Positions 2,632-14,070 of a stretch of DNA of 14,070 bases are shown here, in pieces. The position numbers and the translations under genes are program-made. The DNA is from Terriglobia bacterium (GTDB taxonomy: Bacteria; Acidobacteriota; Terriglobia; UBA7540), in the NCBI GenBank assembly GCA_022866195.1, contig JALHUF010000197.1:1-14070 (forward strand). Reading direction: 5' to 3'. Position 1 is the stretch's first letter; every line of letters begins with the position of its first letter. Below the pieces are notes generated by a model. That model searched no databases and had not been told where the DNA came from. It was given only the letters and a program-made list of their open reading frames with translations.

Positions 2632-2673
2632 GTTGTCAGTTGTCAGTCGTCAGTTGTCAGTTGTCAGTGGTCG
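2632..2673. repeat. Heptamer tandem array, consensus GTTGTCA, about six units
   Basis: Six consecutive 7-base units share the form GTNGTCA. Four are exact GTTGTCA, the third is GTCGTCA, and the sixth is degenerate (GTGGTCG). On the minus (coding) strand the unit reads TGACAAC. The array occupies almost all of the 37-base gap between nfo and leuS, contains the nfo stop codon (2664-2666), and begins five bases from the leuS start codon. Confidence 0.85.
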
Positions 2674-3569
2674 CTCTTCTTCACTGTTGACTTTCGACTT
2701 TCGACTTTTGACCTTTGACTTTTGTCTTCTCCTGCCAGGCGGCGCATCATCCGCAAGTTCCGCTGGTCGTCGCCCGGCCGGTCAATGGGCGTCTCGCAGA
2801 TGAACGGCATGACCCTGAGCCGGGGGTGGCGCACAATGCGGCGGAACGCTGCCGTGCCGATCTCTCCCCTGCCAATATGCTGGTGGCGGTCGGCGTGCGA
2901 GCCGCAAGGCGTCTTCGAATCGTTGGCGTGAATTACCCGGACGTTGGCGAGGCCCACGGTTGACTCCAACTGCCGCAACGTCTCCCGCAGCCCGCACGGC
3001 GTGTGCAACCGGTAGCCAGCCTCATAGCAGTGCGCCGTATCAATGCAGGCACCGACCGGCAAATCCCGCGCCGCCCCGGCAATAATTTCCGCCACCTCTT
3101 CAAACGTCCGGCCGATGGCGGAGCCTTGTCCCGCCGTGTTCTCCACCAGAACCATCAGGCCGTTGAATTGCACTCCCTCTGCTGCCCGCCGCAGTGACTC
3201 AACACAGGTCTTAATGGCTTCCGAAGGGCTTGCACCTTTTGCGCTTCCCGGATGCGTTACCAAGTAGTCCGCCCCAAGCGCCACGGCCCGCTGGATTTCC
3301 CGCCGGAAGGCCGCAACGGATTTCTCGCGCATCAGGGGGTCCGCCGAGGCCAGGTTAATCAGGTAGTTGTCGTGCACCACGACCGGAGAAAGACCATACT
3401 GACACCGGGCGGCCTGGAACCGCACGCACTCCTCCTCGGTGGGATCTAACGTCCTCCAGCCGCGAGGGTTAGCGGAAAACATCTGGAACGTGTCGCAGCC
3501 GAGCTTCTTGGCGCGGTGCGCCGCGTTCTCCAGCGCCCCGGCAATCGAAGTGTGTACACCCACCCTCAC
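2664..3569 (-). CDS. nfo: Endonuclease IV (AP endonuclease, Nfo family)
   Basis: This is a zinc-dependent TIM-barrel enzyme that nicks DNA 5' of abasic sites in base-excision repair. All nine metal-ligand positions known from E. coli Nfo can be placed: H66 (VVHDNY), H106 (THPG), E143 (VENTAG), D177 and H180 (IDTAH), H214 (IHANDSK), D227 and H229 (ADRHQHIG), and E259 (CETP). The start is GTG at 3569-3567. A GGAG at 3578-3581 sits eight bases upstream, and the family-typical MRVGVHTSIAG follows. The 301 residues exceed the usual 280-285. The final 20 or so residues (from about EDKSQRSK) are basic and hydrophilic and are encoded by the heptamer array at 2689-2730 and the edge of the next array, so they are probably an acquired tail. 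leuS follows 37 bases later and is likely cotranscribed. Confidence 0.95.
   Translation of the reverse strand: MRVGVHTSIAGALENAAHRAKKLGCDTFQMFSANPRGWRTLDPTEEECVRFQAARCQYGLSPVVVHDNYLINLASADPLMREKSVAAFRREIQRAVALGADYLVTHPGSAKGASPSEAIKTCVESLRRAAEGVQFNGLMVLVENTAGQGSAIGRTFEEVAEIIAGAARDLPVGACIDTAHCYEAGYRLHTPCGLRETLRQLESTVGLANVRVIHANDSKTPCGSHADRHQHIGRGEIGTAAFRRIVRHPRLRVMPFICETPIDRPGDDQRNLRMMRRLAGEDKSQRSKVESRKSTVKKSDH
2689..2730. repeat. Heptamer tandem array, consensus GACTTTY, inside the 3' end of nfo
   Basis: Five 7-base units (2689-2723) follow the form GACYTTY/GACTTTT, and a sixth is decayed (GTCTTCT, 2724-2730). On the nfo coding strand the unit reads RAAAGTC. The array is translated as the KSQRSKVESRKST portion of the endonuclease IV tail. 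It is separated from the GTTGTCA array by 15 bases of non-periodic sequence. Confidence 0.8.
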
Positions 3570-3597
3570 AGAAATTTCTCCGCCAAGTTAAATTCCC

Positions 3598-3627
3598 ATG
3601 GTAACAGAACGGTTTAAAAGGCGTCAA
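3598..3627 (-). promoter_or_regulatory. Candidate sigma-70-type promoter for nfo-leuS
   Basis: On the minus strand TTGACG (3627-3622) is followed by an 18-base spacer and TACCAT (3603-3598). A TG at 3606-3605 makes the latter an extended -10. Transcription would begin near 3591, about 20 bases before the GTG start and ahead of the GGAG at 3578-3581. The -35 matches the consensus at five of six positions, while the -10 is only fair. Confidence 0.45.
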
Positions 3628-3691
3628 CAAACGCGCTTGTGAAGACACCCGCCCCATGCAGCAGCGCTGCGGAGGTTTTCGCGACGAATCG

Positions 3692-3934
3692 TTATGCGGC
3701 CTGGCGTGCTTTAACCCGTCTGTACTCCCAGGAGAAGCCGAGCAAGAAAACGAGGACAGCCAGCATCCAGATCAGGGGTGAAGACTTTGCGAACGAAACC
3801 GGATCCAATGCTACGGCTGTTCCATCCTCGTGAGCGAGGACCGCCGTGAAGTAAACGATTGTGCCGAGGAGCAAAAGGATGGCAGCCCCCACTAGGAAGA
3901 CCAGGCCGGCAAGGATGCTTTTCAGGAGAACCAT
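3692..3934 (-). CDS. Small two-helix membrane protein of unknown function
   Basis: The 80-residue product has two hydrophobic spans, at about residues 5-32 and 54-69. They are joined by a polar, acidic segment (HEDGTAVALD), and the protein ends in a basic tail (EYRRVKARQAA). The positive-inside rule places both ends in the cytoplasm and the middle loop in the periplasm. I do not recognise the family. The reading frame stays open upstream to 4111, but that extension lacks membrane or domain character and would run across the divergent peptidase promoter, so I use the ATG at 3934. No Shine-Dalgarno is visible. An extended -10 lies exactly where a leaderless transcript would need it. nfo starts 122 bases downstream. 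Confidence 0.6.
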   Translation of the reverse strand: MVLLKSILAGLVFLVGAAILLLLGTIVYFTAVLAHEDGTAVALDPVSFAKSSPLIWMLAVLVFLLGFSWEYRRVKARQAA

Positions 3935-3940
3935 GCTCGA

Positions 3941-3949
3941 ATGGTAACA
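3941..3949 (-). promoter_or_regulatory. Extended -10 placed for leaderless transcription
   Basis: TGTTACCAT on the minus strand ends seven bases before the ATG at 3934, so the expected transcription start is the A of the start codon. The same nine bases form the candidate nfo -10 (3606-3598). I see no convincing -35. Confidence 0.35.
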
Positions 3950-4033
3950 TGCTACACATGCCTTTTGCATCTCTTCGGACGTCCCAGCGCCCTTCCAGCT
4001 TGGCGCCTCCTCCGTACGGCGCACGCACTGACC

Positions 4034-4042
4034 TGCTATACT
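4034..4042 (+). promoter_or_regulatory. Extended -10 promoter element for the M28 peptidase gene
   Basis: TGCTATACT is an extended -10 (TGn plus TATACT, five of six consensus positions). It lies 55 bases upstream of the chosen start codon, giving a leader of roughly 50 bases. No good -35 is present at the usual distance, which extended -10 promoters tolerate. Confidence 0.45.
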
Positions 4043-4085
4043 GGACGCCGCTTCATTACCCTTGGTGCGGCTTTCCCTCACCATC

Positions 4086-4091
4086 AGGAGG
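4086..4091 (+). promoter_or_regulatory. Shine-Dalgarno that fixes the M28 peptidase start
   Basis: A perfect AGGAGG stands six bases before the ATG at 4098. This selects 4098 over the in-frame ATG at 4062, which has no such site and would add 12 polar residues ahead of the signal peptide. Confidence 0.8.
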
Positions 4092-4097
4092 CCATGG

Positions 4098-6251
4098 ATG
4101 CGACGCTTCATCTGGGTCGTTGCCCTGCTCGTCGCCTGCGGCAGCCTACCCGCGCTTGCCCAGCAGAGCCCGTTCCTTCCCGAAGAGACTTACAACAAAC
4201 TGGTGAACGAGATTTCCGGCGACATCGCCTACGACAGCTTGCGCACGCTCGTGATGTATCACGCCACCAGCGGCGGCGCCGAGGACTTCCAGAAGGAAGC
4301 CGATTGGGTCCGCGAACGCGCGCAGAGCTACGGCCTGGAAGATGTCAAGTTCATCGCCCAGCCCGCCTGGCGCCCCTCACCCAAGGGCGTGGATCAAAAC
4401 TGGACGCTCAAGGGCGGCGAGCTGTGGCTGCTCGAGCCCAAGCCGATGAAGTTGGGCGACGTGCGTGAAACGCCCCTCTCGGTCGCCGACAACAGCCCCT
4501 CGGCAGACATCACCGCGGAGTTGATTGACGTCGGCGAAGGCATCCTGGAAAGCGAGTACGCGGGCAAAGACGTGGCGGGCAAGGTTGTGCTGGCCTACGG
4601 CTCCCCCAACAAGGTGAAAGAGCTTGCTTGTTGGGCACGGGGCGCGGTGGGTATTGTCTCCTACTATTCCCAGCGCGTTAATCCGTGGACCGACTATCCC
4701 GACCAGGTGGCCTGGACGCGCGTCAGCCCAGACGAGGAAGGCAAGAAACCGACGCCGCCCGTCTTTGTGATTTCGCCGCGCACCGGCCTGATGCTCAGCC
4801 GCTGGATGGCGGGCCGCGCCCCGAGCCACATCTTCGCGGGCGAGCCTGACAAGCCCGCCACGCCGCCAGTCTTTCGCGTCCACCTGAAGGTTCAGTCGGA
4901 AGTCACGCGGCCGGGCCGCCAGGGTTTCGTCGAAGGGGTCATCCGCGGCACTCGGTACCACGACCAAGCCATCGTGCTCACGGCACACCTCCAGGAAGAA
5001 AAGACCTCGGCCAACGACGACCGCAGCGGCTGCGCCAGCCTGCTGGAGATTGCGCGCGCCCTCACCACCATGATTGCCGACGGGCGCCTGCCCCGCCCCC
5101 AGCGCGACATCCGCTTTTGGTGGGTCGACGAAGTCACGTCGGAGTACCAGTATTTCGCCGACCACCCCGAGGAGCGCGAGCGCATCATCGCCAACATCAA
5201 TCAGGACATGGTGGGGGCCCGGCAATCGCTGGGCGGGCGAGTCCAGCACATCAGCCGCACGCCCTACTCGCGTTGGAGTTACCTGAATGACGTGGTGGAG
5301 AGCATCGTCACAAGCCTCGCGCGCGGCAACAATGCCTACCTCGCCTCCTGGCAGAACAAGAATCCCGTGCCTTACTCGCGGCCCATCTTCGCGCGTCTGG
5401 GCAGCCATGAACCGTACGCCGCGCAGGTAGTGCCCTACTTCGACTCCACCGACCATATGGTCTTCAACGAAGCCGCTATCGGCATTCCGGGCGTCGACTT
5501 CACCAACTGGCCCGATCCCTACATCCATTCCACCGGCGACGATCTCTGGCAGATCGATACGACGCAGCTCCAGCGCAACGCTGTGGCGGTGGCGGCCACC
5601 GCGCTCTACTTAGCCAACCTGAGCGACGCCGACGTGCCCACCCTCATGGCCGTCATAGCCGGCGAGGCCCGGGAACGAGTGGCGCACGACCTGGCCACCG
5701 GCCTCTCCCGCATGGCGCAGGCACCCGCTACCGGAAAGCGCGCCGCCTACGACGACGGCTTGAACCTACTCGTTCAGGCCGTCGCCCGCGAAAGCGCCGA
5801 GCTTGAGTCCTTGCGGCGCTTTGCCGATGCGGGTAGCCGGAAGCTGCTCGACAGCCTTATCGCCGATCTCCACCTCACCGAGGTGAACCACCACCAACGT
5901 ATCGAGGAGTGGCATCAGGCGCTGGGCGGCAAAAAGGCACCACCCACCATGAGCGAGCGCGAAAAGGCTCTGGCGGCTAAAGTCCCCCGCAGCCTCGGCT
6001 CACTCGGCGAGTACCTGCGCAGCAAAGACCGGATTGAAGGGCCTAAGGGGCTCCACGGGCTGATGCAGTGGGAGGCGCTGAATTACGTGGACGGCCAGCG
6101 GTCCATCCTTGAAATCTATTACGCCGTGCGCGCCGAAAGCCTCTCCGTGGGCGAATGGTACTACGGCACGGTCAGGCTGGAGGACATCGAAGCCCTGTTC
6201 ACGGCGGCAGAGAAAGAGAAGGCCGTGGAGATTGTCACGAAGCCTATGTAG
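4098..6251 (+). CDS. Exported M28-family zinc metallopeptidase with PA domain
   Basis: The 717-residue product begins with a signal peptide (MRRFIWVVALLVACGSLPALAQ), with likely cleavage after ALA at 19-21, so it should act in the periplasm or outside the cell. A protease-associated (PA) domain spans about 130-260. The M28 di-zinc core follows: H297 (TAHLQ), D307 (NDDRSG), E345 (VDEV), D370 (NQDM) and H477 (YIHSTGDD), in the family order. The residue before E345 is Asp344, where M28 enzymes normally carry the catalytic Glu. A helical C-terminal extension (about 510-717) ends in a region with winged-helix-like character (NYVDGQRSILEIYYAV). The substrate is unknown; aminopeptidase or di/tripeptidase activity is the family norm. 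DAHP synthase lies 187 bases downstream and is unlikely to be functionally linked. The fold assignment is firm, the activity less so. Confidence 0.85.
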   Translation: MRRFIWVVALLVACGSLPALAQQSPFLPEETYNKLVNEISGDIAYDSLRTLVMYHATSGGAEDFQKEADWVRERAQSYGLEDVKFIAQPAWRPSPKGVDQNWTLKGGELWLLEPKPMKLGDVRETPLSVADNSPSADITAELIDVGEGILESEYAGKDVAGKVVLAYGSPNKVKELACWARGAVGIVSYYSQRVNPWTDYPDQVAWTRVSPDEEGKKPTPPVFVISPRTGLMLSRWMAGRAPSHIFAGEPDKPATPPVFRVHLKVQSEVTRPGRQGFVEGVIRGTRYHDQAIVLTAHLQEEKTSANDDRSGCASLLEIARALTTMIADGRLPRPQRDIRFWWVDEVTSEYQYFADHPEERERIIANINQDMVGARQSLGGRVQHISRTPYSRWSYLNDVVESIVTSLARGNNAYLASWQNKNPVPYSRPIFARLGSHEPYAAQVVPYFDSTDHMVFNEAAIGIPGVDFTNWPDPYIHSTGDDLWQIDTTQLQRNAVAVAATALYLANLSDADVPTLMAVIAGEARERVAHDLATGLSRMAQAPATGKRAAYDDGLNLLVQAVARESAELESLRRFADAGSRKLLDSLIADLHLTEVNHHQRIEEWHQALGGKKAPPTMSEREKALAAKVPRSLGSLGEYLRSKDRIEGPKGLHGLMQWEALNYVDGQRSILEIYYAVRAESLSVGEWYYGTVRLEDIEALFTAAEKEKAVEIVTKPM

Positions 6252-6298
6252 CCGTATCCGACCAATCCTGCGGCGGGTCGAGCGATACGTGCCCAGTT

Positions 6299-6325
6299 GC
6301 GTGTTCGAGGTCCAGGAACACACGC
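6299..6325. repeat. Imperfect inverted repeat between the peptidase and aroF
   Basis: GTGTTC (6301-6306) pairs with GAACAC (6316-6321). The outer GC/GC pairs (6299-6300 with 6324-6325) extend the stem past a two-base bulge. No U-run follows, so it is not a standard terminator. It could be a leader structure for aroF or chance. The rest of the 187-base gap shows no gene and no convincing -35/-10 pair. Confidence 0.3.
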
Positions 6326-6438
6326 GTGAAGGCCAAGCACCGGAGCGAGCGCAAATCCGGGATTGTTTGAGGTCAATGGTTCAATTAGACTTCCACCTCA
6401 GGCCCCTGGTCGCAGCCTCAGCTTAGAAGGCGAAACCC

Positions 6439-7473
6439 ATGCTGATCGTCATGAAGCCGCAGGCGACGGAGGAAAACATCCGCCGCGTGTGCGAGAAGAT
6501 CGAGGCAATGGGCTTCCGCACCCATCCTATCCCCGGGGCGCAGCGCACGGCCATCGGCATCACCGGTAACCAGGGCCCGCTCGAGCCGGCAGAATTTGAA
6601 TGCCTGCCGGGCGTGGCCGAAGCCATCCCGGTCTCGAAGCCCTACAAGCTGGTCAGCCGCGAGGTGAAGAGCGAGAGATCGCTCATCCGCGTGGGCTCAG
6701 GCGATAACCTGGTCACCATCGGTGGCCGAGAGCTGGCCATCATCGCCGGACCCTGCGCCATCGAAAGCCGTGAGCAGGCTTTCATTGCCGCCGGGCAGGT
6801 GCGCAAGGCGGGCGCCCGCCTGTTTCGCGGCGGCGCGTTCAAGCCCCGCACCTCACCTTACAGTTTCCAGGGATTGGGGAAAGAAGCGCTGGAAATCCTG
6901 GCCGAAGTGCGCCGCCAGTTCGGCCTGGCGATCGTGACGGAAACCATTGACCCGGAAAATTGTGCCCTGGTGGAAGAATACGCCGACGTGCTGCAAATCG
7001 GCGCGCGCAACATGCAGAACTTCTCGCTGCTGAAGCGGGCCGGACGCTCGCCGCGGCCGGTGCTGCTGAAACGCGGCCTCTCGGCCACGCTGGAGGAATT
7101 CCTCATGGCCGCCGAGTACATCCTCTCCGAGGGCAACTACAACGTCATCCTGTGCGAGCGCGGTGTGCGCACCTTCGCCGACCACACGCGCAACACCCTG
7201 GACTTGAGCGTCATCCCGGCCGTGAAGCGCCTCTCGCACCTGCCCATCATCGTCGATCCCAGTCACGGCACGGGGGCCCGCGACAAGGTGACGCCCCTGG
7301 CACGCGCCGCGGTGGCCGTGGGTGCCGACGGGCTGATTATCGAGGTCCACCCGGAGCCCGAGCGGGCGCTCTCCGACGGTTACCAGTCGCTCTACCCCGA
7401 TCAGTTCGATGCCCTGATGGAGCAGATCACTGCTATTGGCGCGATCCTGGGCCGCACCACGGCCAGAGATTGA
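6439..7473 (+). CDS. aroF: 3-deoxy-7-phosphoheptulonate (DAHP) synthase, type I-beta with N-terminal ferredoxin-like domain
   Basis: The enzyme condenses phosphoenolpyruvate with erythrose 4-phosphate, the first step of the shikimate pathway to aromatic amino acids. Residues 1-70 form the ferredoxin-like regulatory domain of the Thermotoga-type I-beta class, which in characterised members mediates feedback inhibition by tyrosine or phenylalanine. The TIM barrel follows. Expected metal ligands are C106 (GPCAIES), H276 (DPSHGTG), E302 (IEVHP) and D313 (LSDGYQSL). The phosphate-binding loop [16 protein letters not shown] (130-145) is intact. The length of 344 is typical. AGAAGG at 6425-6430, eight bases upstream, supports the ATG at 6439. 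The stop codon lies inside a degenerate heptamer array, and the beta-propeller gene follows after 32 bases. No other shikimate gene is in view. Confidence 0.95.
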
Positions 7474-7496
7474 CGATTGATAGTTGCCGATTGAAC
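7469..7496. repeat. Degenerate heptamer array across the aroF stop codon, consensus ATTGANN
   Basis: Four 7-base units read ATTGACG, ATTGATA, GTTGCCG and ATTGAAC. The first contains the aroF stop TGA (7471-7473), and the last ends just before the GGAGG used by the next gene. The array is decayed, but the period and the RTTGMNN core hold. Confidence 0.55.
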
Positions 7497-7505
7497 GGAG
7501 GCGGG

Positions 7506-8702
7506 TTGTCTGACTTGCCCGAGCCACATCATCCTGGACGGGAGACCGGGCAGGGCTTGTCCAGCCCCGGTCGTCCCTGGTCCCTCCTCCCTGCCGCGCC
7601 TAGCCCGCGCTCGCTTGGGCTAGTTCTCTTGCTTAGCTGTCTAGCCCTGGCGCTCCCTGCCTGCGCGCGCCGGTCTTATCCGCCCCAGCCCTACCTGGCT
7701 TTTGTGGCGAGTGCCGGCAGCCATTCCGTGGCGGCGGTTAACCTGGAGAGCTTTCGGGTGGTGGCTTCCATCCCCGTGGCCCCCCAGCCCGAGCAGCTCG
7801 CCGTGCGGCCCGGCAGCCGCGAGGTCTACGTTACCGCCGCTTCAGGGCACTTGGAGGTTATCGGCTTCCCTGACTTGCGCGTTATCCGGACGCTGCGCGT
7901 GGGGCGCGGCGCGCGCGACCTCAGGTTCAGCCGCGACGGTCGCGAGGCCTACGTACTCGACCCCGGCGAAGGGCAAATCGTGTTCCTCGATGGCGAGGCC
8001 GCGAAGGTGCTGGCGCGCGTTTCGGTTGGCGCGCCGCTCTCGAGCCTTGCCCTCACCCCGGACGGCAAGACTCTGGTCGCGGCCTCGAGCCACACCAGCC
8101 GAATCTTCTTCGTAAGCGTGGAGGCCCGGAAAGTGCTCGGCGCGGTCGAGGTGGGCAAGGATCCGGGCCCAATGGTGATTACGGCGGACGGCTCCAAGGT
8201 CTTGGTAGCGGACACGGGGGAAGAGAAAATCTCCTCGGCGGACATTGCCACGCGCCGCATCCTCTCGCACATCGAGATCGGGGCCAAACCCACGGCGCTC
8301 ATCCTCAAGCCGGATGGCGGCGAGCTTTTCGTGCTTTGCGCCCAGGCATCCACGCTGGTCATCGTGGACCCCTACCGCGACAACGTCTCGCAAACCATCA
8401 CCACGGGGCGCGAGCCTGGGGCCGCCGTCAGCCGACGGGACTCGAGTGTCCTCTACATCGCCAACTCCGGGGACGGTTCTATCACCACGTTCGACGTCCA
8501 GAACCGCCTCGTCGTGGCCTCGACGCACACCGGGGCGCAGCCCCGCGCCCTGGCCCTGACCCCTGATGAACGCTTCCTGGTGGCAGTGGACAGTGCCGCC
8601 TCCAGCCTTGCCATCCTGCGCACGGACCGCCCCGCGCTGGTTACTACGATTCCTGTCGGCACCCGCCCCGTGGATGTCGTCGTCCCTGATTGGCTAAAGT
8701 AG
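7506..8702 (+). CDS. YVTN-type beta-propeller protein, probable lipoprotein
   Basis: The product has about 398 residues if read from the TTG at 7506, which follows GGAGG (7497-7501) by four bases. In-frame TTG codons at 7470 and 7491 are alternatives; there is no in-frame ATG. A hydrophobic stretch (LGLVLLLSCLALALPAC) ends in a lipobox-like LPAC with Cys53, so the mature protein is probably lipid-anchored and faces the periplasm. The preceding 37-residue n-region is unusually long. The rest is a chain of about 42-residue repeats (for example VSVGAPLSSLALTPDGK and VEVGKDPGPMVITADGS), with eight recognisable segments that would form a seven-bladed propeller with a split closing blade. No enzymatic motif is visible. 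Such domains usually bind proteins or ligands at the surface. It may be cotranscribed with aroF, without an obvious metabolic link. Confidence 0.75.
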   Translation: MSDLPEPHHPGRETGQGLSSPGRPWSLLPAAPSPRSLGLVLLLSCLALALPACARRSYPPQPYLAFVASAGSHSVAAVNLESFRVVASIPVAPQPEQLAVRPGSREVYVTAASGHLEVIGFPDLRVIRTLRVGRGARDLRFSRDGREAYVLDPGEGQIVFLDGEAAKVLARVSVGAPLSSLALTPDGKTLVAASSHTSRIFFVSVEARKVLGAVEVGKDPGPMVITADGSKVLVADTGEEKISSADIATRRILSHIEIGAKPTALILKPDGGELFVLCAQASTLVIVDPYRDNVSQTITTGREPGAAVSRRDSSVLYIANSGDGSITTFDVQNRLVVASTHTGAQPRALALTPDERFLVAVDSAASSLAILRTDRPALVTTIPVGTRPVDVVVPDWLK

Positions 8703-8831
8703 TGCAAGGGTCGTTCCCCCGCCCCTGGCAGCTTCTCGATTCGCCGGGCCCGGCCTGTCAGTTGACTGTGCCGTCCTCCCATACGCAAGGACGCACCGCC
8801 GCAGATAACCCGAGCCAACCAGGCCGCCGTT

Positions 8832-8848
8832 GCCAGCCCCATGCTGGC
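8832..8848. repeat. Stem-loop GCCAGC-CCCAT-GCTGGC
   Basis: A perfect 6-bp stem (8832-8837 with 8843-8848) closes a five-base loop in the gap between the convergent propeller and GH57 genes. It resembles the stem-loop at 8895-8910 and lacks a U-run. Confidence 0.5.
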
Positions 8849-8860
8849 CGAACCCTGCCC

Positions 8861-8880
8861 AACTTAAAGTAAAACTTTAA
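8861..8880. repeat. AT-rich palindromic repeat, copy 1
   Basis: AACTTAAAGTAAAACTTTAA contains a 7-bp inverted repeat, TTAAAGT/ACTTTAA, around three bases. A copy identical at 19 of 20 positions lies at 13917-13936. The TTTAA end could act as a weak termination signal, or the palindrome could be a protein-binding site. Confidence 0.6.
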
Positions 8881-8894
8881 ATCGGGAACACGGG

Positions 8895-8910
8895 CCCAGC
8901 CCCTGCTGGG
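8895..8910. repeat. Stem-loop CCCAGC-CCCT-GCTGGG
   Basis: A perfect 6-bp stem (8895-8900 with 8905-8910) encloses a CCCT loop. It is nearly the same sequence as the stem-loop at 8832-8848, so two related hairpins flank the AT-rich palindrome. The 371-base gap 8703-9073 otherwise holds no convincing gene. Confidence 0.5.
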
Positions 8911-8966
8911 AATCCACGGCTTTGGCATTTGATTGGTATGGGAGAGGAATGGAAGGCTCACGCAAG

Positions 8967-8984
8967 ATGTCGGCGCGCCGACGT
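8967..8984. repeat. 18-base near-palindrome ATGTCGGCGCGCCGACGT, copy 1
   Basis: The inner 14 bases (8969-8982) are a perfect palindrome, and the outer bases ATGT/ACGT add one mismatch. A counterpart at 13763-13780 differs only by a matched pair of substitutions that keeps the symmetry. Confidence 0.6.
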
Positions 8985-9037
8985 GAAGTGCACTAACGGG
9001 TGACCAGGGGGGAGTGACAGGCATGTCGGCCTTCCTC

Positions 9038-9065
9038 GTCACTTGTCACTCGTCACTTGTCACTG
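9038..9065. repeat. Heptamer array GTCACTY, four units, after the GH57 gene
   Basis: Four 7-base units alternate GTCACTT and GTCACTC, with the last ending in G. On the GH57 coding strand they read AGTGAC-type and begin nine bases after its stop codon, following the lead-in CTGAAGAACAGTGAC (9073-9059). Looser AGTGAC-like units in the opposite orientation lie just upstream (about 8999-9019). Confidence 0.85.
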
Positions 9066-9073
9066 TTCTTCAG

Positions 9074-11245
9074 CTACCAGCTCGCCAGATCCTCGGTGAG
9101 TTCGAGCGTCAGCCAGCCTTCCGGAGGGATGACTTGCAGGGGTAATTCGTCGGCCCAGACAGAGACTTGCAGGCGGGTTTCCTCGCCCGCGGCAACGCCT
9201 GCGAGGGTGTAATCGATGCCCAGCTCGAAGATACGGTCAAAGGCCACATGTAGCTGCTCGCCTGTCCCCAGTGGCACCAGGACTTGCTCATCATGCTTCC
9301 AGAACTGGACCAAGGTCAGGCGCCCCTCCTCTATCGTGGCATGGCAGCGTGCCCGACCTTCGCTATCGACGTTAAGCCGAATCTCAAACTGTCGCTGCTG
9401 CTCAAGAAAGGCCGCGCCCAGGTCCAGGCGCACATAGATGGCCTTCTCATTGTAACCGTAATAGAGCGCCTCGACGCACTGGGCGCCGCCGTGCATGGAG
9501 CCGGAACGATAATCCGGGGAGTAGACGCCCGCGCCCAGCCACTCGAAGTAATTGCTGACCTGGCCATCCACCCGGGGCTCAATCCGTCCCGTGGGTGGCA
9601 CCACGACCGCCCGCGCCCTGGGCCGCTTGATGGGCACGGCCAACTCATCGGGCGGAGACCCGCCCAGCAGGCGGTAGATGTTGCTCAGGTGCTTGCGGAA
9701 GAGCAGATCAAATTCCTCGTCGTGGGCGCTGGTATGTTCGGGGCCGTACCACCAGCACCAGTCGCTTCCTTCCGCAATCCAGAGTTCCTCCTGGGCTTTT
9801 TTCACCTCTTCCGGGTCCAGTTCCGAGTCTGCGGACTGGCGCGCGAAGAAGTCGCGGGCGTCGGCCAGCAAATCCCAAGCCCGATTGTCCTCTTCGGCGC
9901 CAATCCAGACATCGAAATTGGCATTGATCCAGGAGCCCGGCACGACGTGGGTGAGCCTGCCGGGCGTAGTCACCTCCAGGGCTTCGCTGGCGGTTACGGC
10001 GTGCAGTTCCGGATCTGAGGCCACGCGGCCGTAGAAGCTCCGGAGGAATTCCCGGCCGTTGCCGGGGAAGAACTCCCAGGCGTTTTCGCCGTCCAGAATG
10101 ATGGAAATGACGGCGGGGCGCTCTCCGGTGCTCCTGGCGGCAGCGCGAATTCGCAGGTGGAGGTCTGCCGCGGCGGCGTGAGGATCCATACGCGAGTAGA
10201 CAAAGCCGATGAGGTCAGAGAGTTGGTGGTCACGGAAGAACAGGCCCACCGTCCGCTCGCCCGCCACGAAGCGGTGGGGACGGTACAATTCGTTTCCGCC
10301 GGAGACGGTCCCGTCGCTCTGGCGATAGAAGCCCATTTGCAGCGAGCGGCCCAAGACACCTTCGTCAGTTGCCGCCCACTGGAAACCCTCCTCGGCAGCC
10401 AGGCGCAGCACTTCGTCCGAGACACTGCCCTCGCTGGGCCACAGACCCCGCGGCCGCTGGCCGAAGACCCGCTCATACTGCGCGACCGCAGCGCGCAACT
10501 GGGCCCGGGCATCTTCCGGATGCCGGAAGGGCTTGCCGGGTAACCTGACTCCGGGATGAGATTCCGCCGCCACGGCCGTATCGCAGAGTAGCGGCAGGAT
10601 GGGATGGTAGAAGGGAGAGGTGGATACTTCGATCTGTCCGCGCCGGCTGGCTTCACGATATTCTTCAAGTGTTGCTTTAAATATCTCAATTCCCCTATTC
10701 CTCAGGATAGACTTATCCTCTTCCGAATAGCCACGACCCTGGCGCACCAGCCCGTTTATTTGCGGGTCATTCTCCAAGTAGCTTTCTTCATACCAAGCCA
10801 ACTGCGACAGGACCTGGAGGTCCAGCAAGTCCTGCGCGCTGAAAAGCCGCCCCGCTCCCTCCTGGCGGCGAGTAGCCTGGGCTTTGTCAAACAACTCGCC
10901 GAAACGCGGATAACGATTCAGGAGGTTCTCCCGGTTCAACTGGAAACCGAACACCAGGAGCTTCTCGCGTTCCTCCGCGGTCAAGTCCCCAACCGGCTTG
11001 AAGGCAATCTGGTAAGGTTCCTCGTGGGCCGTATCCTGGATGTAGTCCTCCAGTTGCGCCACCAGCGAAGGGACCAGGTTGAAGGTCACGTGGACGGAGG
11101 GGAACTCCCTCAACAGGGCCACCATCCCGTAGTAGTCTTTCAGGGCGTGGAGGCGCACCCAGGGCATGGCGTACACGTCCTCGGCCAAGTCCCTGTAAAA
11201 GGGCTGGTGCATGTGCCAGAGGAGCATGAGGTAGGTCTGCGCCAT
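9074..11245 (-). CDS. Glycoside hydrolase family 57, amylopullulanase/alpha-amylase type
   Basis: The 723-residue protein carries the GH57 conserved regions. They are HMHQPFY (11-17), GLWPSEGSV (267-275), WAATDEGVL (290-298) with Glu295 as the expected nucleophile, ILDGENAWE (383-391) with Asp385 as the expected acid/base, and a later HVVPGSWI segment (433-440). The SDWCWWYGPEH block (494-504) and FDLLFRKHL (512-520) fit the amylopullulanase-like subgroup, which cleaves alpha-1,4 and sometimes alpha-1,6 glucosidic bonds by a retaining mechanism. Residues from about 545 to the end look beta-rich and form a separate C-terminal domain. There is no signal peptide, so it probably acts on intracellular glycogen or maltodextrins. 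The ATG at 11245 gives the family-typical N-terminus, but no good Shine-Dalgarno precedes it. It is divergent from lptFG and convergent with the propeller gene, with no glycogen genes adjacent. Confidence 0.88.
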   Translation of the reverse strand: MAQTYLMLLWHMHQPFYRDLAEDVYAMPWVRLHALKDYYGMVALLREFPSVHVTFNLVPSLVAQLEDYIQDTAHEEPYQIAFKPVGDLTAEEREKLLVFGFQLNRENLLNRYPRFGELFDKAQATRRQEGAGRLFSAQDLLDLQVLSQLAWYEESYLENDPQINGLVRQGRGYSEEDKSILRNRGIEIFKATLEEYREASRRGQIEVSTSPFYHPILPLLCDTAVAAESHPGVRLPGKPFRHPEDARAQLRAAVAQYERVFGQRPRGLWPSEGSVSDEVLRLAAEEGFQWAATDEGVLGRSLQMGFYRQSDGTVSGGNELYRPHRFVAGERTVGLFFRDHQLSDLIGFVYSRMDPHAAAADLHLRIRAAARSTGERPAVISIILDGENAWEFFPGNGREFLRSFYGRVASDPELHAVTASEALEVTTPGRLTHVVPGSWINANFDVWIGAEEDNRAWDLLADARDFFARQSADSELDPEEVKKAQEELWIAEGSDWCWWYGPEHTSAHDEEFDLLFRKHLSNIYRLLGGSPPDELAVPIKRPRARAVVVPPTGRIEPRVDGQVSNYFEWLGAGVYSPDYRSGSMHGGAQCVEALYYGYNEKAIYVRLDLGAAFLEQQRQFEIRLNVDSEGRARCHATIEEGRLTLVQFWKHDEQVLVPLGTGEQLHVAFDRIFELGIDYTLAGVAAGEETRLQVSVWADELPLQVIPPEGWLTLELTEDLASW

Positions 11246-11285
11246 GAGGCTCGAGGGCTATTGCTTTACGGCATGAGAACCGGTG

Positions 11286-11294
11286 TGTTAGCAT
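11286..11294 (+). promoter_or_regulatory. Candidate extended -10 for lptFG
   Basis: TGTTAGCAT is an extended -10 (TGn plus TAGCAT, four of six consensus positions). It differs by one base from the TGTTACCAT found ahead of nfo and the small membrane gene. A weak TTTACG (11264-11269) lies 19 bases upstream. The leader would be about 58 bases. The 113-base divergent region must also contain the GH57 promoter, for which I see no good match. Confidence 0.3.
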
Positions 11295-11358
11295 GAGGGT
11301 TTGCCGGTAGCGCGGCCCGGCGAGAATCAGAGCCGCAGCTCGACGCCCAACGCCCCCC

Positions 11359-13677
11359 ATGCGGATTCTTACCCGCTACATCCTGAAAGAAATCCTCTCG
11401 CATTCCTTGCTGGGCCTGCTCGTTTTCACCTTCGTGATCTTCGTCCCCTATATCGCGCACTTGCTGGAACAAGTAGTTCGCCATAGCCTGCCGGCCACGA
11501 GCATTGCCACGCTCTTCCTGCTGCCTCTGCCCGGGATCCTGGTGCGCACCATTCCGATGGCCGTCCTGGTGGGCATCCTGATCGGGCTCACGCGCATGTC
11601 CGCGGACGGCGAGGTGATCGCGACACGCGCCTCAGGCCTCGGCCTGGGGCAGTTCGCGCGACCGGTCATGATCATCGCCCTGTGCGGCTGGGGACTGGCG
11701 CTCTGGATGAGTTTATTCCTGGCCCCACAGTCGGCGCGGAAACTGCACCGCATGGAGCAGGAGATTACCACCAGTGAGGTGCCTTATGAAATCCAGCCGC
11801 GGGTCTTTCTGGAACAGTTTCCCAACCGATTAGTTTACTTGCAAGACGTGATCAGTTCCCGCTCGCGGTGGCGCGGCGTCTTCATCGCTGATACCACCCA
11901 GCGCGACGCGCCGAAAGTTACGTTAGCGGAAAGCGGCATGCTTGTCAACGACCCGGACAGCCGTCGCCTGACGCTTCACCTGGAGCGGGGCAGCACGCAT
12001 GAGATTGACCCGAAGCACCCGGAAACGTATTCGGTCGCTTCTTTCACCGACACCGACATCCCTATCCCGCTGGACCGGGGCAATGGAACCATCTCCGATT
12101 GGCGGGTGCCGCCTGCCCTCTCGCTGGAGAAGCTCCTGGCGGCGACGGCGGACCCACGCCAGCAGCAGGAAGCCTGGGTGGAGCTGCACTACCGCCTGGC
12201 TTTGCCCGTCGCTTCTCTGGTTCTGGCCCTGGTGGGCATTCCGCTGGGACTTTCCACCCGCAAAGGAGGCAAGGGCGTCGGGGTAATGCTGACCGTGCTG
12301 CTGGTTTTTCTCTACTACATCATCATGGCCTTCGGCTGGAGCTTTTCCAAGCAAGGGCGCCTCAGCCCGGCCGTGGGGTTGTGGCTGGCGAACGCGGCCT
12401 TCGGTGTCGCCGGCGCCCTGATGCTGCTCCAATGGCGCCGCCTGCGGCTCCGGCTGCAATTCATCCGGGATTGGCTGGAGGACCTCTGGCGCCAGTGGCA
12501 GCAGCGGCGTTCGCGCCCACCACGGCAGGAGGGAACCCGGGAGGTGACCGGGGCGCCTAAGCCTCGGCCGGCTGGCCAGCATCTGTTTCAGATCCTCGAT
12601 TATTACATCCTCCGTAGCTGGCTTTTCTACTTGGTGCTGCTGGTTCTGACCTTCACAGGCATTTACCTGATCTTCGACTTCTACCAGATCCTGGGCGACG
12701 TCCTCCGCAACCACATCGCGGCACGCGTGGTGGTGAACTACTATTGGTTTCTCCTCCCCCAAGCCATTTATTACCCCGCGCTGCCCCTGAGTATCCTGGT
12801 CGCCACCCTGGTGAGCTTCGGCCTGCTTACCAAGACAAACCAGATCACCGCCATCAAGTCGGCAGGCATCAGCATCTATCGCGCTGCCCTCCCCATCCTG
12901 GCCGCCTCGGCTATCCTGAGCGTAGGGATGTTTCTCTTCGGCGACCGGTACCTTCCCGAAGCCAATCAGCGCAGAGACGCCCTGCGCAACCAAATCAAGG
13001 GGAAGCGGCCGCAGACCTACTACCGGCCCGACCGGCAGTGGATCTTCGGGCAGGCGAACCGTATCTACAACCACCGGTTCTTTGACCCTGACCGGAACGT
13101 CTTTGCCGACCTCTCGGTGTTTGAGTTCGATCCGCAAACCTTCCGCCTGACCCGGCGCATTTACGCCAGCCGCGCCCTCTGGGAACCAGCCATCCGCGGC
13201 TGGATACTGGAGAACGGTTGGGTGAGGGACCTGGATGGTGACCGGGTCACTTCCTACATGCCCTTCGCCATCGCCAAGTTCGATGAGCTCACGGAAGGCC
13301 CTTCCTACTTCAAGAAAGAAGTCAAGCCCTCGGATCAAATGAGCGCCCTGGAACTGCGGCGCTACATCAATGGGCTGGCCCAGAGCGGCTTTGACGTGGT
13401 TCGCCTTTCCGTGCAGTTCTACCGCAAGTTCTCCTTTCCGCTGATTGCCTTCGTGGTGACGCTGATCGGGATTCCCTTCTCCCTCACGGTGGGCCGCAAA
13501 GGGGCAATTTCCGGCGTCGCCCTGAGCATCGCCATCGCCATCGTCTACTGGTCGGTCTCCAGCCTGTTCGAGGCCATGGGGAACTTGAACCAGCTTCCAC
13601 CCCTTGTCGCCGCCTGGTCTCCAGACTTGCTGTTTGGCTTGGGCGGCGTCTATTTGCTCCTGCGCGTCCGAACCTGA
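11359..13677 (+). CDS. lptFG: LptF-LptG fusion, LPS export ABC transporter permease
   Basis: This 772-residue protein joins both inner-membrane permeases of the Lpt machine, which extracts LPS from the inner membrane using the LptB ATPase and passes it to LptC/LptA. The LptF-like half (1 to about 380) has hydrophobic spans near 13-35, 53-77, 101-122, 280-298, 306-328 and 337-357, with a periplasmic beta domain at 125-265. A basic linker (about 360-407, QQRRSRPPRQEG) leads to the LptG-like half, with spans near 418-440, 459-488, 508-528, 690-710, 716-738 and 745-767 and a periplasmic domain at 530-685. Each half ends in the cytoplasm, so a fusion is topologically possible. Coupling-helix segments are 78-101 (Glu85) and 489-512 (Gln495 at the equivalent position). 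The start fits the family (MRILTRYILKE), but no Shine-Dalgarno is seen. lptA, lptB and lptC are not in view. Confidence 0.93.
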   Translation: MRILTRYILKEILSHSLLGLLVFTFVIFVPYIAHLLEQVVRHSLPATSIATLFLLPLPGILVRTIPMAVLVGILIGLTRMSADGEVIATRASGLGLGQFARPVMIIALCGWGLALWMSLFLAPQSARKLHRMEQEITTSEVPYEIQPRVFLEQFPNRLVYLQDVISSRSRWRGVFIADTTQRDAPKVTLAESGMLVNDPDSRRLTLHLERGSTHEIDPKHPETYSVASFTDTDIPIPLDRGNGTISDWRVPPALSLEKLLAATADPRQQQEAWVELHYRLALPVASLVLALVGIPLGLSTRKGGKGVGVMLTVLLVFLYYIIMAFGWSFSKQGRLSPAVGLWLANAAFGVAGALMLLQWRRLRLRLQFIRDWLEDLWRQWQQRRSRPPRQEGTREVTGAPKPRPAGQHLFQILDYYILRSWLFYLVLLVLTFTGIYLIFDFYQILGDVLRNHIAARVVVNYYWFLLPQAIYYPALPLSILVATLVSFGLLTKTNQITAIKSAGISIYRAALPILAASAILSVGMFLFGDRYLPEANQRRDALRNQIKGKRPQTYYRPDRQWIFGQANRIYNHRFFDPDRNVFADLSVFEFDPQTFRLTRRIYASRALWEPAIRGWILENGWVRDLDGDRVTSYMPFAIAKFDELTEGPSYFKKEVKPSDQMSALELRRYINGLAQSGFDVVRLSVQFYRKFSFPLIAFVVTLIGIPFSLTVGRKGAISGVALSIAIAIVYWSVSSLFEAMGNLNQLPPLVAAWSPDLLFGLGGVYLLLRVRT

Positions 13678-13761
13678 AGAGCAGTGACGCGTGGCAAGTG
13701 ACAAGCCAGATCCGTCGGGTTCTGCTCGTCACTCGTCACTTTTCACTCGTCACTGCTCTTC
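13676..13761. repeat. Long inverted repeat starting at the lptFG stop codon, built from heptamers
   Basis: A perfect 14-bp arm, GAAGAGCAGTGACG (13676-13689), pairs with its complement at 13748-13761. It extends inward with mismatches through AGTGAC-type units (to about 13705) against GTCACT-type units (from about 13732). The arm overlaps the last two bases of the lptFG stop codon. The transcript could form a long hairpin that may protect the 3' end or aid termination, although no U-run follows it. Confidence 0.7.
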
Positions 13762-13815
13762 CATGTCGACGCGTCGACGTTTAGGAGCAGAGGCCAGTGA
13801 CGAGTGACAAGTGAC
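13735..13815. repeat. Overlapping second inverted repeat sharing the same heptamer arm
   Basis: The GTCACT-type array at 13735-13755 is complementary at 20 of 21 positions to the AGTGAC-type array at 13795-13815. The 39-base spacer contains the palindrome at 13763-13780. The left arm here is also the right arm of the inverted repeat 13676-13761, so the two hairpins exclude each other. Confidence 0.7.
13763..13780. repeat. 18-base near-palindrome ATGTCGACGCGTCGACGT, copy 2
   Basis: The inner 14 bases (13765-13778) are a perfect palindrome and the ATGT/ACGT ends add one mismatch. Relative to the copy at 8967-8984 it has A for G and T for C at symmetric positions, so the pairing is kept. It sits at the centre of the inverted heptamer arms. 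Confidence 0.6.
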
Positions 13816-13870
13816 CAGTCAAGATTCCCGGAGCACTTCCTACACGACAGGAGCTATTACCCCCGTTCGA

Positions 13871-13910
13871 AAACAAAAGCGCCGCAAGCCTCATGGAAAC
13901 TTGCGGCGCA
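13871..13910 (-). terminator. Intrinsic terminator for the right-edge minus-strand gene
   Basis: A perfect 10-bp stem, GCGCCGCAAG (13879-13888) with CTTGCGGCGC (13900-13909), encloses an 11-base loop. On the minus strand the stem is followed by TTTTGTTTT (13878-13870). Orientation and U-run both point to the gene ending at 14009. On the plus strand no U-run follows, so it would not serve lptFG well. Confidence 0.75.
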
Positions 13911-13916
13911 AATCAG

Positions 13917-13936
13917 AACTTAAAGTAAGACTTTAA
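13917..13936. repeat. AT-rich palindromic repeat, copy 2
   Basis: AACTTAAAGTAAGACTTTAA matches the copy at 8861-8880 at 19 of 20 positions; the difference is in the loop. It lies between the right-edge gene and its terminator. A further perfect 6-bp hairpin, AGCAAG/CTTGCT, follows at 13952-13966. Confidence 0.6.
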
Positions 13937-13983
13937 TTATTCAAGCTGTCAAGCAAGGCGCTTGCTGTTACATACGCTTGCTC

Positions 13984-14004
13984 GTCACTCGTCACTTGTC
14001 ACTC
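13984..14004. repeat. Heptamer array GTCACTY, three units, after the right-edge gene
   Basis: Three exact units (GTCACTC, GTCACTT, GTCACTC) lie four bases past the stop codon of the minus-strand gene at 14009. On that gene's coding strand they read as AGTGAC units, the same polarity as behind the GH57 gene. Confidence 0.8.
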
Positions 14005-14008
14005 GCCC

Positions 14009-14070
14009 CTAGGCTGTGGTGTAGGCCTTCGCCGCGGCTTTCTTCACTGCCGCCTGCGCCGCCGCCAGCC
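14009..14070 (-). CDS. 3' end of an alanine/lysine-rich protein (partial)
   Basis: The last 19 codons of a minus-strand frame read LAAAQAAVKKAAAKAYTTA and end in TAG (14011-14009). The other two frames are less convincing because this one ends neatly before a heptamer array and a matching intrinsic terminator (13871-13910). Alanine/lysine-rich ends of this kind occur in histone-like and other nucleic-acid-binding proteins, but the fragment is too short to name. The rest of the gene lies outside the window. Confidence 0.5.
   Translation of the reverse strand, partial: LAAAQAAVKKAAAKAYTTA

Follow-up and report, generated by a model that had tools for sequence, protein, structure and literature searches.

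Short tandem arrays of the seven-base unit AGTGACR, which occur in a contig of a Terriglobia bacterium (JALHUF010000197.1, assembly GCA_022866195.1), are real features that are tied to gene ends with a constant polarity in the Acidobacteriota family of that bacterium. The window, meaning the whole stretch of DNA that was analyzed, is one complete contig of 14,070 bp from a draft genome of 3.58 Mb (727 contigs, 85% complete), and 39 genomes of its family, called here the own family, were compared. A first-pass annotation of the window had described period-7 arrays at the 3' ends of five genes and had held that they were too regular for random slippage. Random placement of the arrays with respect to stop codons and strand was seen neither in the own family nor in a genome from another class of the phylum, G051.

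Three consecutive copies of TGACNNN have 59 matches in the own genome. GTGACNAGTGACNAGTGAC was found in 19 of the 39 family genomes, and four copies of TGACNNN were found in 71 of 297 Acidobacteriota genomes. The own-family sample was assembled from the stretches around the listed matches, 20 unselected contigs of the own genome and the GTGACNAGTGACNAGTGAC loci, with genes called by a dicodon model. It contained 133 distinct AGTGACR-type arrays of at least three units. Fifteen that lie inside a called gene and 10 without a called gene on one side were left out of the placement test, leaving 108. The 5' end of the array was within 10 nt of coding sequence in 66 of these 108, compared to a mean of 11.2 (sd 2.9, maximum 22) in 2000 runs of random placement within the same gap. 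The 3' end came that close in 3 of 108. Where the 5' neighbour was a stop codon, 57 of 73 arrays lay within 10 nt, at a median of 4 nt, and where it was a start codon, 9 of 35 did so. In 20 of the 76 arrays with an upstream sense gene, that gene ended on a TGA belonging to one of the first three units.

Own-family stretches that were unselected for arrays (400 kb, from array-bearing contigs) held 25 arrays. G exceeded C in all six located at most 30 nt from a stop, and 13 of 16 shared the polarity. Four of 17 stop sides were within 10 nt, where 1.1 were expected with a maximum of 6, so closeness is not significant in this sample alone. Start sides were less clear than stop sides, both here and in G051. 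A control with the reversed pattern was uninformative, since CAGTNNN also matches the opposite strand of ACTGACN arrays.

The arrays also occur in pairs. When a pair was defined as adjacent opposite-strand arrays within 200 bp, 37 own-family pairs faced inward and one faced outward. Of the inward pairs, 26 sit between tandem genes (one with a called open reading frame (ORF) across it), five between convergent genes and six without a called neighbour. Convergent genes therefore fail to explain the inward order. The proposed tie to 3' ends stands in that the arrays are linked to them. The rule nevertheless concerns gene edges more than 3' ends alone, since start-side arrays can also abut their start codon and most inward pairs lie between tandem genes. 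A degenerate partner (at least 14 of 19 matches) was present downstream of 16 of 95 unpaired arrays, compared to one upstream and one in shuffled sequence. The possibility that own-family arms were copied from each other was rejected. Their outer ends were 0.691 identical versus 0.700 when permuted and, because true pairs show no greater likeness than permuted ones, they look like independent copies.

Alignment of the arrays on their first and last units revealed a leader with the weak consensus AARRRC (from 112 flanks) and, on the other side, the tail AGCAAG (from 94). The modal number of units was four, in 94 of 173 own-family arrays and, among the matches listed, in 53 of 70 other Acidobacteriota arrays. 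Among the matches listed from other phyla, four units were present in 52 of 142 arrays, with a tail of up to 29 units. The loci in these unit counts were mostly picked for arrays of at least three units. Single AGTGACR copies are unstructured (median fold z -0.16, with 8 of 127 below -2). G-quadruplexes were considered as a general reason for the arrays and were not borne out, as none of the 127 AGTGACR elements carries four GG runs and they have no G-quadruplex tracts.

G051 was chosen as array-rich, and its 30 stretches (557 kb) were unselected for arrays. Periods of 7, 14 and 21 accounted for 171 of its 300 merged arrays. Of 182 period-7 arrays, 10 were inside genes and 11 were without a neighbour. 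Stop sides within 10 nt numbered 51 of 171 (random 9.7, sd 2.9, maximum 20), and start sides 9 of 151 (random 6.9, sd 2.6). Among arrays no more than 30 nt from a stop, the coding strand had more G than C in 68 and less in none, the two being equal in one. Over the same distance from a start, the outward strand had more G in 19 and less in one. The 5' side of the G-rich strand was nearer to coding sequence in 133 of 160 arrays, and neighbouring arrays in the same gap faced inward in 41 cases, outward in one and in the same direction in 16. The units of G051 include GGGTTCN, GTTAGTG, GATGARG, GAATGAA, GAGTAGC and TCAGTAG, and these heptamers, unrelated to AGTGACR, follow the same placement and strand rule. 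Arrays of other periods obeyed the polarity more weakly (62 of 90). The array-free set, 87 of the 225 G051 gaps of at least 120 nt, showed no G skew behind stops (0.02, 0.02, -0.01, -0.01, 0.01 and -0.02) and a mild G skew on start sides (0.03 to 0.14).

Some array families of G051 carry conserved sequence next to the repeat. GATGARG arrays are followed by GATGAAATAAAACCAATTCTTCAGCCC (16.5 bits over 38 positions, compared to 1.2 at random loci). In the same way, GTTAGAAATCARTACTTTCGAAG follows GTTAGTG arrays, with 11.7 bits over as many positions, compared to 1.5. The GATGARG core (GATGAAATAAAACCAATTCTTCAGCCC, up to two mismatches) has 129 copies in G051 and is present in 0 of 9 other genomes of its family. 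As separate observations on this genome, a tandem array in 138 of the 225 gaps of at least 120 nt is an unusual load for a bacterial genome, and some whole gaps consist of nested mirrored arms (e.g. L413 at 2739 and L408 at 9697), with GAATGAA/TTCATTC on the outside and GTTAGTG/CACTAAC or TGGTGCT/AACCAGG on the inside.

These counts bear on polymerase slippage, by which heptamer tracts would arise in place, seven bases being a length that suits the replication machinery, and would survive only outside coding sequence. Slippage has been put forward for heptamers in parts of the literature, and it fits the dominance of period 7 in G051 and the longer arrays of other phyla among the matches listed. 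However, it predicts no strand polarity, flush placement, inward pairs, four-unit mode, leader and tail, or private core of 129 copies, and we consider it improbable. The earlier judgement is borne out in that slippage alone does not account for the arrays. The placement of the AGTGACR family and of the period-7 arrays of G051 exceeds chance. The argument is weaker for AGTGACR, because its extra sequence is a short leader and tail only.

Similar arrays are present well outside the phylum. AGTGACRAGTGACRAGTGACRAG was found in at least 118 stretches in named genomes, where a uniform-base estimate gives a chance expectation of ~0.06 in 257 billion bases. Among the matches listed are Acidobacteria, Chloroflexi, Cyanobacteria, Bacteroidetes, Chlorobi, Verrucomicrobia, Nitrospirae, Proteobacteria, Latescibacterota and Clostridium, with phyla assigned from database record names. 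Since some of these records are isolates (Alcanivorax, Shewanella, Alteromonas and Clostridium akagii), binning artefacts are not the cause. Pairs at the genome-scan loci were inward in 37 cases and outward in two, among the matches listed. Their arms were slightly more alike than permuted arms (0.739 versus 0.712 for 37 pairs among the matches listed), which genome mixing can cause. When pairs were oriented by their G-rich strand, the matches listed gave 41 inward and two outward for Acidobacteriota loci, and 31 and six for other phyla.

Counts in other phyla were made with simple ORF calling, and 65 arrays inside ORFs were left out. Among the matches listed, the 5' side of the G-rich strand was nearer to coding sequence in 81 of 108 arrays, and in 33 of 46 once AGTGACR arrays were excluded. 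Within 30 nt of a stop, G exceeded C in 39 and fell below it in seven of the matches listed. A Porphyromonadaceae stretch (40 kb, a small sample) gave 6 of 9, and a Chlorobi stretch of 24 kb contained no period-7 array. Period-7 tails were also found behind 5 of 23 tRNA genes, at two loci, and a stop codon is therefore not required. At one of the loci examined, L298 (Nitrospirae), a tRNA cluster carries arrays of the AGTTAAA type behind four tRNA genes, and an AT-rich stem precedes each array.

The tRNA genes also bear on back-up stop codons, by which a TGA every seven bases would close all three frames behind a gene. The arrays that supply the stop of their upstream gene from one of their first three units, 20 of 76, agree with this idea. 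The tRNA tails do not, and near G051 stops all-frame stops were present on the coding strand in 34 of 69 arrays and on the other strand in 23. The G051 counts already largely refute it as a general account, and we regard it as scarcely credible.

In the window itself, Tandem Repeats Finder (score of at least 30) called six period-7 arrays: 2632-2672, 2683-2728, 9038-9064, 13725-13754, 13796-13819 and 13981-14005. Pfam matches support the assignment of leuS, nfo, an M28 peptidase, DAHP synthase, a beta-propeller protein, a GH57 protein and LptF/G. At the right edge lies ppdK, so named because the convergent gene of a relative (locus L078) matches TIGR01828. Rfam gave no match in the window. Of the arrays placed by the first-pass annotation at the ends of five genes, those behind GH57, behind the right-edge gene and in the nfo region were called, while those of aroF and lptFG are visible by eye only and lie below score 30.

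The four-unit AGTGACR array at 9038-9064 (minus strand) begins 9 nt behind the GH57 stop. A degenerate, inward-facing partner at 9000-9019 (plus strand) was recognized by eye, and the GH57 3' region has a fold z of -2.4. A damaged AGTGACR array at 13682-13705 (plus strand) lies directly behind the lptFG stop (13675-13677); by eye it has three AGTGAC-like units, the middle one damaged. It faces an inverted partner arm at 13725-13754 (minus strand), and the predicted RNA fold of this pair has an energy of -48.7 kcal/mol (z -6.6). A further AGTGACR array at 13796-13819 (plus strand) lies within the gap between lptFG and ppdK, and another at 13981-14005 (minus strand) lies 4 nt behind the ppdK stop (14010-14012). 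The constant AGTGACR polarity reported after the GH57, lptFG and right-edge stops was confirmed. The arrays at 13725-13754 and 13796-13819 were absent from the earlier list, which thus overlooked the inverted pair to which the lptFG array belongs.

The two arrays near nfo had both been assigned to its 3' end. The first, GTTGTCA/TGACAAC at 2632-2672 (G-rich on the plus strand), lies between the nfo stop and the start of leuS. The distance from the leuS start codon to the beginning of the G-rich strand (GTTGTCA) is 5 nt, and the general rule assigns the array to leuS, even though a TGA within it serves as the stop codon of nfo. The second, RAAAGTC at 2683-2728 (minus strand), lies inside the nfo reading frame and is read as a C-terminal tail, since in the best matches Nfo homology to solved endonuclease IV stops at residues 258-279, out of 299. 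Heptamer sequence (window 2664-2728) encodes the last ~20 residues of Nfo, past the end of that homology. Annotators should be aware that arrays can provide stop codons and add protein tails such as this one. A degenerate GATTGNN run at 7469-7496 (plus strand) was seen by eye over the aroF stop (7471-7473), and its unit is present at other own-family loci too.

The GH57 end was compared across 30 loci, 29 of them readable orthologues. The stop was at the same residue in 28 of the 29, and a period-7 tract that beats 99% of its own shuffles followed it in six. These six represent six genera with six different units: AGTGACR (G000), CCCGAAC (G315, inward-facing), GAAGGATG (G313), TGAGGGT (G304), CTTGAAT (G334) and ATTATGA (G298). 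The other 23 had no significant period-7 tract within 93 nt. A GATTGAG tract noticed by eye behind the GH57 stop of G299 failed the shuffle test and was dropped.

This turnover is relevant to the idea that the arrays are selected 3'-end signals, retained, whatever their origin, for their effect in terminating, protecting or insulating transcripts. Arrays that abut stops in the own family and in G051, the strong fold at lptFG and the tails behind tRNA genes would all be expected of such signals. On the other hand, single copies are unstructured, no terminator-like site was called at any window array, and leuS has terminator-like stems but no array behind it. The sole T-tailed terminator-like stem downstream of ppdK is found ~70 nt past its array (13909-13879, minus strand), and the 23 of 29 relatives without a significant tail behind the GH57 stop also argue against this idea, which appears unlikely.

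The lptFG stop is common to relatives without arrays, and the palindrome TGTCGRCGCGYCGACA is kept beyond the first pair. In the window, this palindrome is located at 8969-8982 and 13765-13778, in the GH57 3' gap and the lptFG-ppdK gap. It occurs in the same gaps of many relatives (loci L078, L080, L083, L085, L086, L089 and L090), including array-free ones. A second dyad, ACTTAAAGTAANACTTTAA, is present in the same two gaps (8862-8881 and 13918-13935), and similar dyads, CTTCAAGTATTGCTTTAAG, are found in relatives.

The retained palindrome matters for end healing, in which broken intergenic DNA would gain G-rich repeats on its 3' ends before rejoining, much like a telomere, to give the inward order. 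This would account for inward order whatever the unit, as in G051, and for gaps made up of nothing but a G-rich half and then a C-rich one (L372). However, a conserved palindrome is retained beside the arrays in both the lptFG and GH57 gaps, and neither a fixed leader nor a four-unit mode is expected. Ku shows no link to the arrays: it was found in 5 of 39 family genomes and is absent from the array-rich G000, G340, G311, G315, G299 and G298. End healing is thus very unlikely.

The explanation we favour, with belief and doubt about evenly divided, is that the arrays are dispersed intergenic gene-end elements like repetitive extragenic palindromic (REP) sequences, themselves not palindromes. 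The AGTGACR element spans ~40 bp and comprises the purine leader AARRRC, heptamers that usually number four, and a short AGC tail. The G-rich strand of a copy runs 5' to 3' away from the coding edge, mostly flush behind a stop and sometimes supplying it, and two independent copies face to face form an inverted pair. Copies may spread through a trans-acting process, either copying or transposition, with placement reflecting both entry and tolerance, and slippage would only alter the unit number afterwards. Stem-loops formed in mRNA at facing copies would be a consequence, perhaps one used by the cell. The observations behind this explanation are the placement, polarity and unit number, the independence of own-family arms, the turnover of units behind an invariant stop and the private core of G051. 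The inward order of pairs, the conserved leader and tail and the lack of skew behind stops in array-free gaps also speak for it.

Several results weigh against these REP-like elements. No mover was found. Y1 transposases are encoded by 34 of the 39 family genomes, and their number is unrelated to that of the arrays; for example, G311 has 62 array matches and one Y1, and G317 has one array match and eight Y1. The relation was mixed, with no clear link, in the family of G051, where Y1 transposases were pooled with the REP-associated tyrosine transposase (RAYT) subfamily included. Flanking direct repeats of 4-8 nt showed no excess in 127 elements, giving no sign of target-site duplication, and the AGTGACR sequence beyond the repeat is short and weak. 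Both arms share their unit in 20 of 41 G051 pairs, and the arms are therefore not independent in unit choice there (sharing 0.387 versus 0.135 when permuted). In other phyla, the placement and strand rule is present but weaker.

A broader claim, that one unrecognised process in many phyla writes G-rich seven-base repeats on gene edges, with the G strand pointing away from the gene and usually in about four units that lineages swap behind the same stop, is doubtful. If true, it would mean a general gene-end tagging mechanism, not a set of unrelated repeats. Heptamer arrays have so far been described unit by unit. Should a single rule of placement and strand hold across many units and phyla, the importance would not lie in the sequence of the unit, and whatever reads gene edges should be sought. 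Neither G-quadruplexes nor back-up stops could then be a general account.

Seven-base tandem units are also known from intergenic regions of cyanobacteria as short tandemly repeated repetitive (STRR) sequences. STRR is a descriptive label and is not known to carry a placement rule. The earlier statement that the window's units differ from those of cyanobacteria is misleading, as AGTGACR arrays are also present in a genome of the Oscillatoriaceae and across many further phyla. A general gene-edge rule for heptamers was not found in the open-licence literature, nor was an Acidobacteria case. Conserved sequence beyond the unit, namely the leader, the tail and the G051 cores, sets the arrays apart from slippage microsatellites, and the lack of excess target-site duplications in 127 AGTGACR elements sets them apart from DDE-type miniature inverted-repeat transposable elements (MITEs).

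Elements with four heptanucleotide repeats are mentioned in a Geobacter metallireducens paper (PMC2700814). Like the arrays here, the TAACTGA direct repeats of Beggiatoaceae are heptamer arrays located between genes; they occur in scattered phyla, have an orientation relative to genes and contain stops in all frames. In the available text, they lie just upstream of start codons, whereas the arrays here sit behind stops (MacGregor 2015, PMC4679880). REP sequences are described as dispersed, GTAG/CGTC tagged, mostly within 20 bp of ORF 3' ends, forming dimers in opposite orientation and often supplying the stop codon (Di Nocera et al. 2013, PMC3733652). The arrays resemble them in dispersal, closeness to ORF 3' ends, inverted dimers and supplied stops. 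In contrast to REPs as that text presents them, single AGTGACR copies are not palindromes of 20-40 bp, their leader and tail consensus has no GTAG or CGTC tag, and they show no clear link to Y1 transposases.

The closest parallel is the work of Rehm et al. (2015; PMC4692102) on GGGAATC in Xanthomonas and GGGGA(C/T)T in Nostoc. In the available text of that paper, these heptamers lie on the coding strand near stops and on the non-coding strand near starts, the majority of arrays have four units, and Xanthomonas has 70 and 75 convergent pairs. Similar placement, pairing and a four-unit mode are thus already published for Xanthomonas, and the arrays described here share the seven-base units, the strand and placement, the mostly four units and the inward pairs. 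The four units were connected there with G-quadruplexes, a reason that cannot apply to AGTGACR because it has no G-tracts. Set against the available account of those arrays are a median distance of 4 nt behind stops, units that vary between genera behind one stop, and families with private cores.

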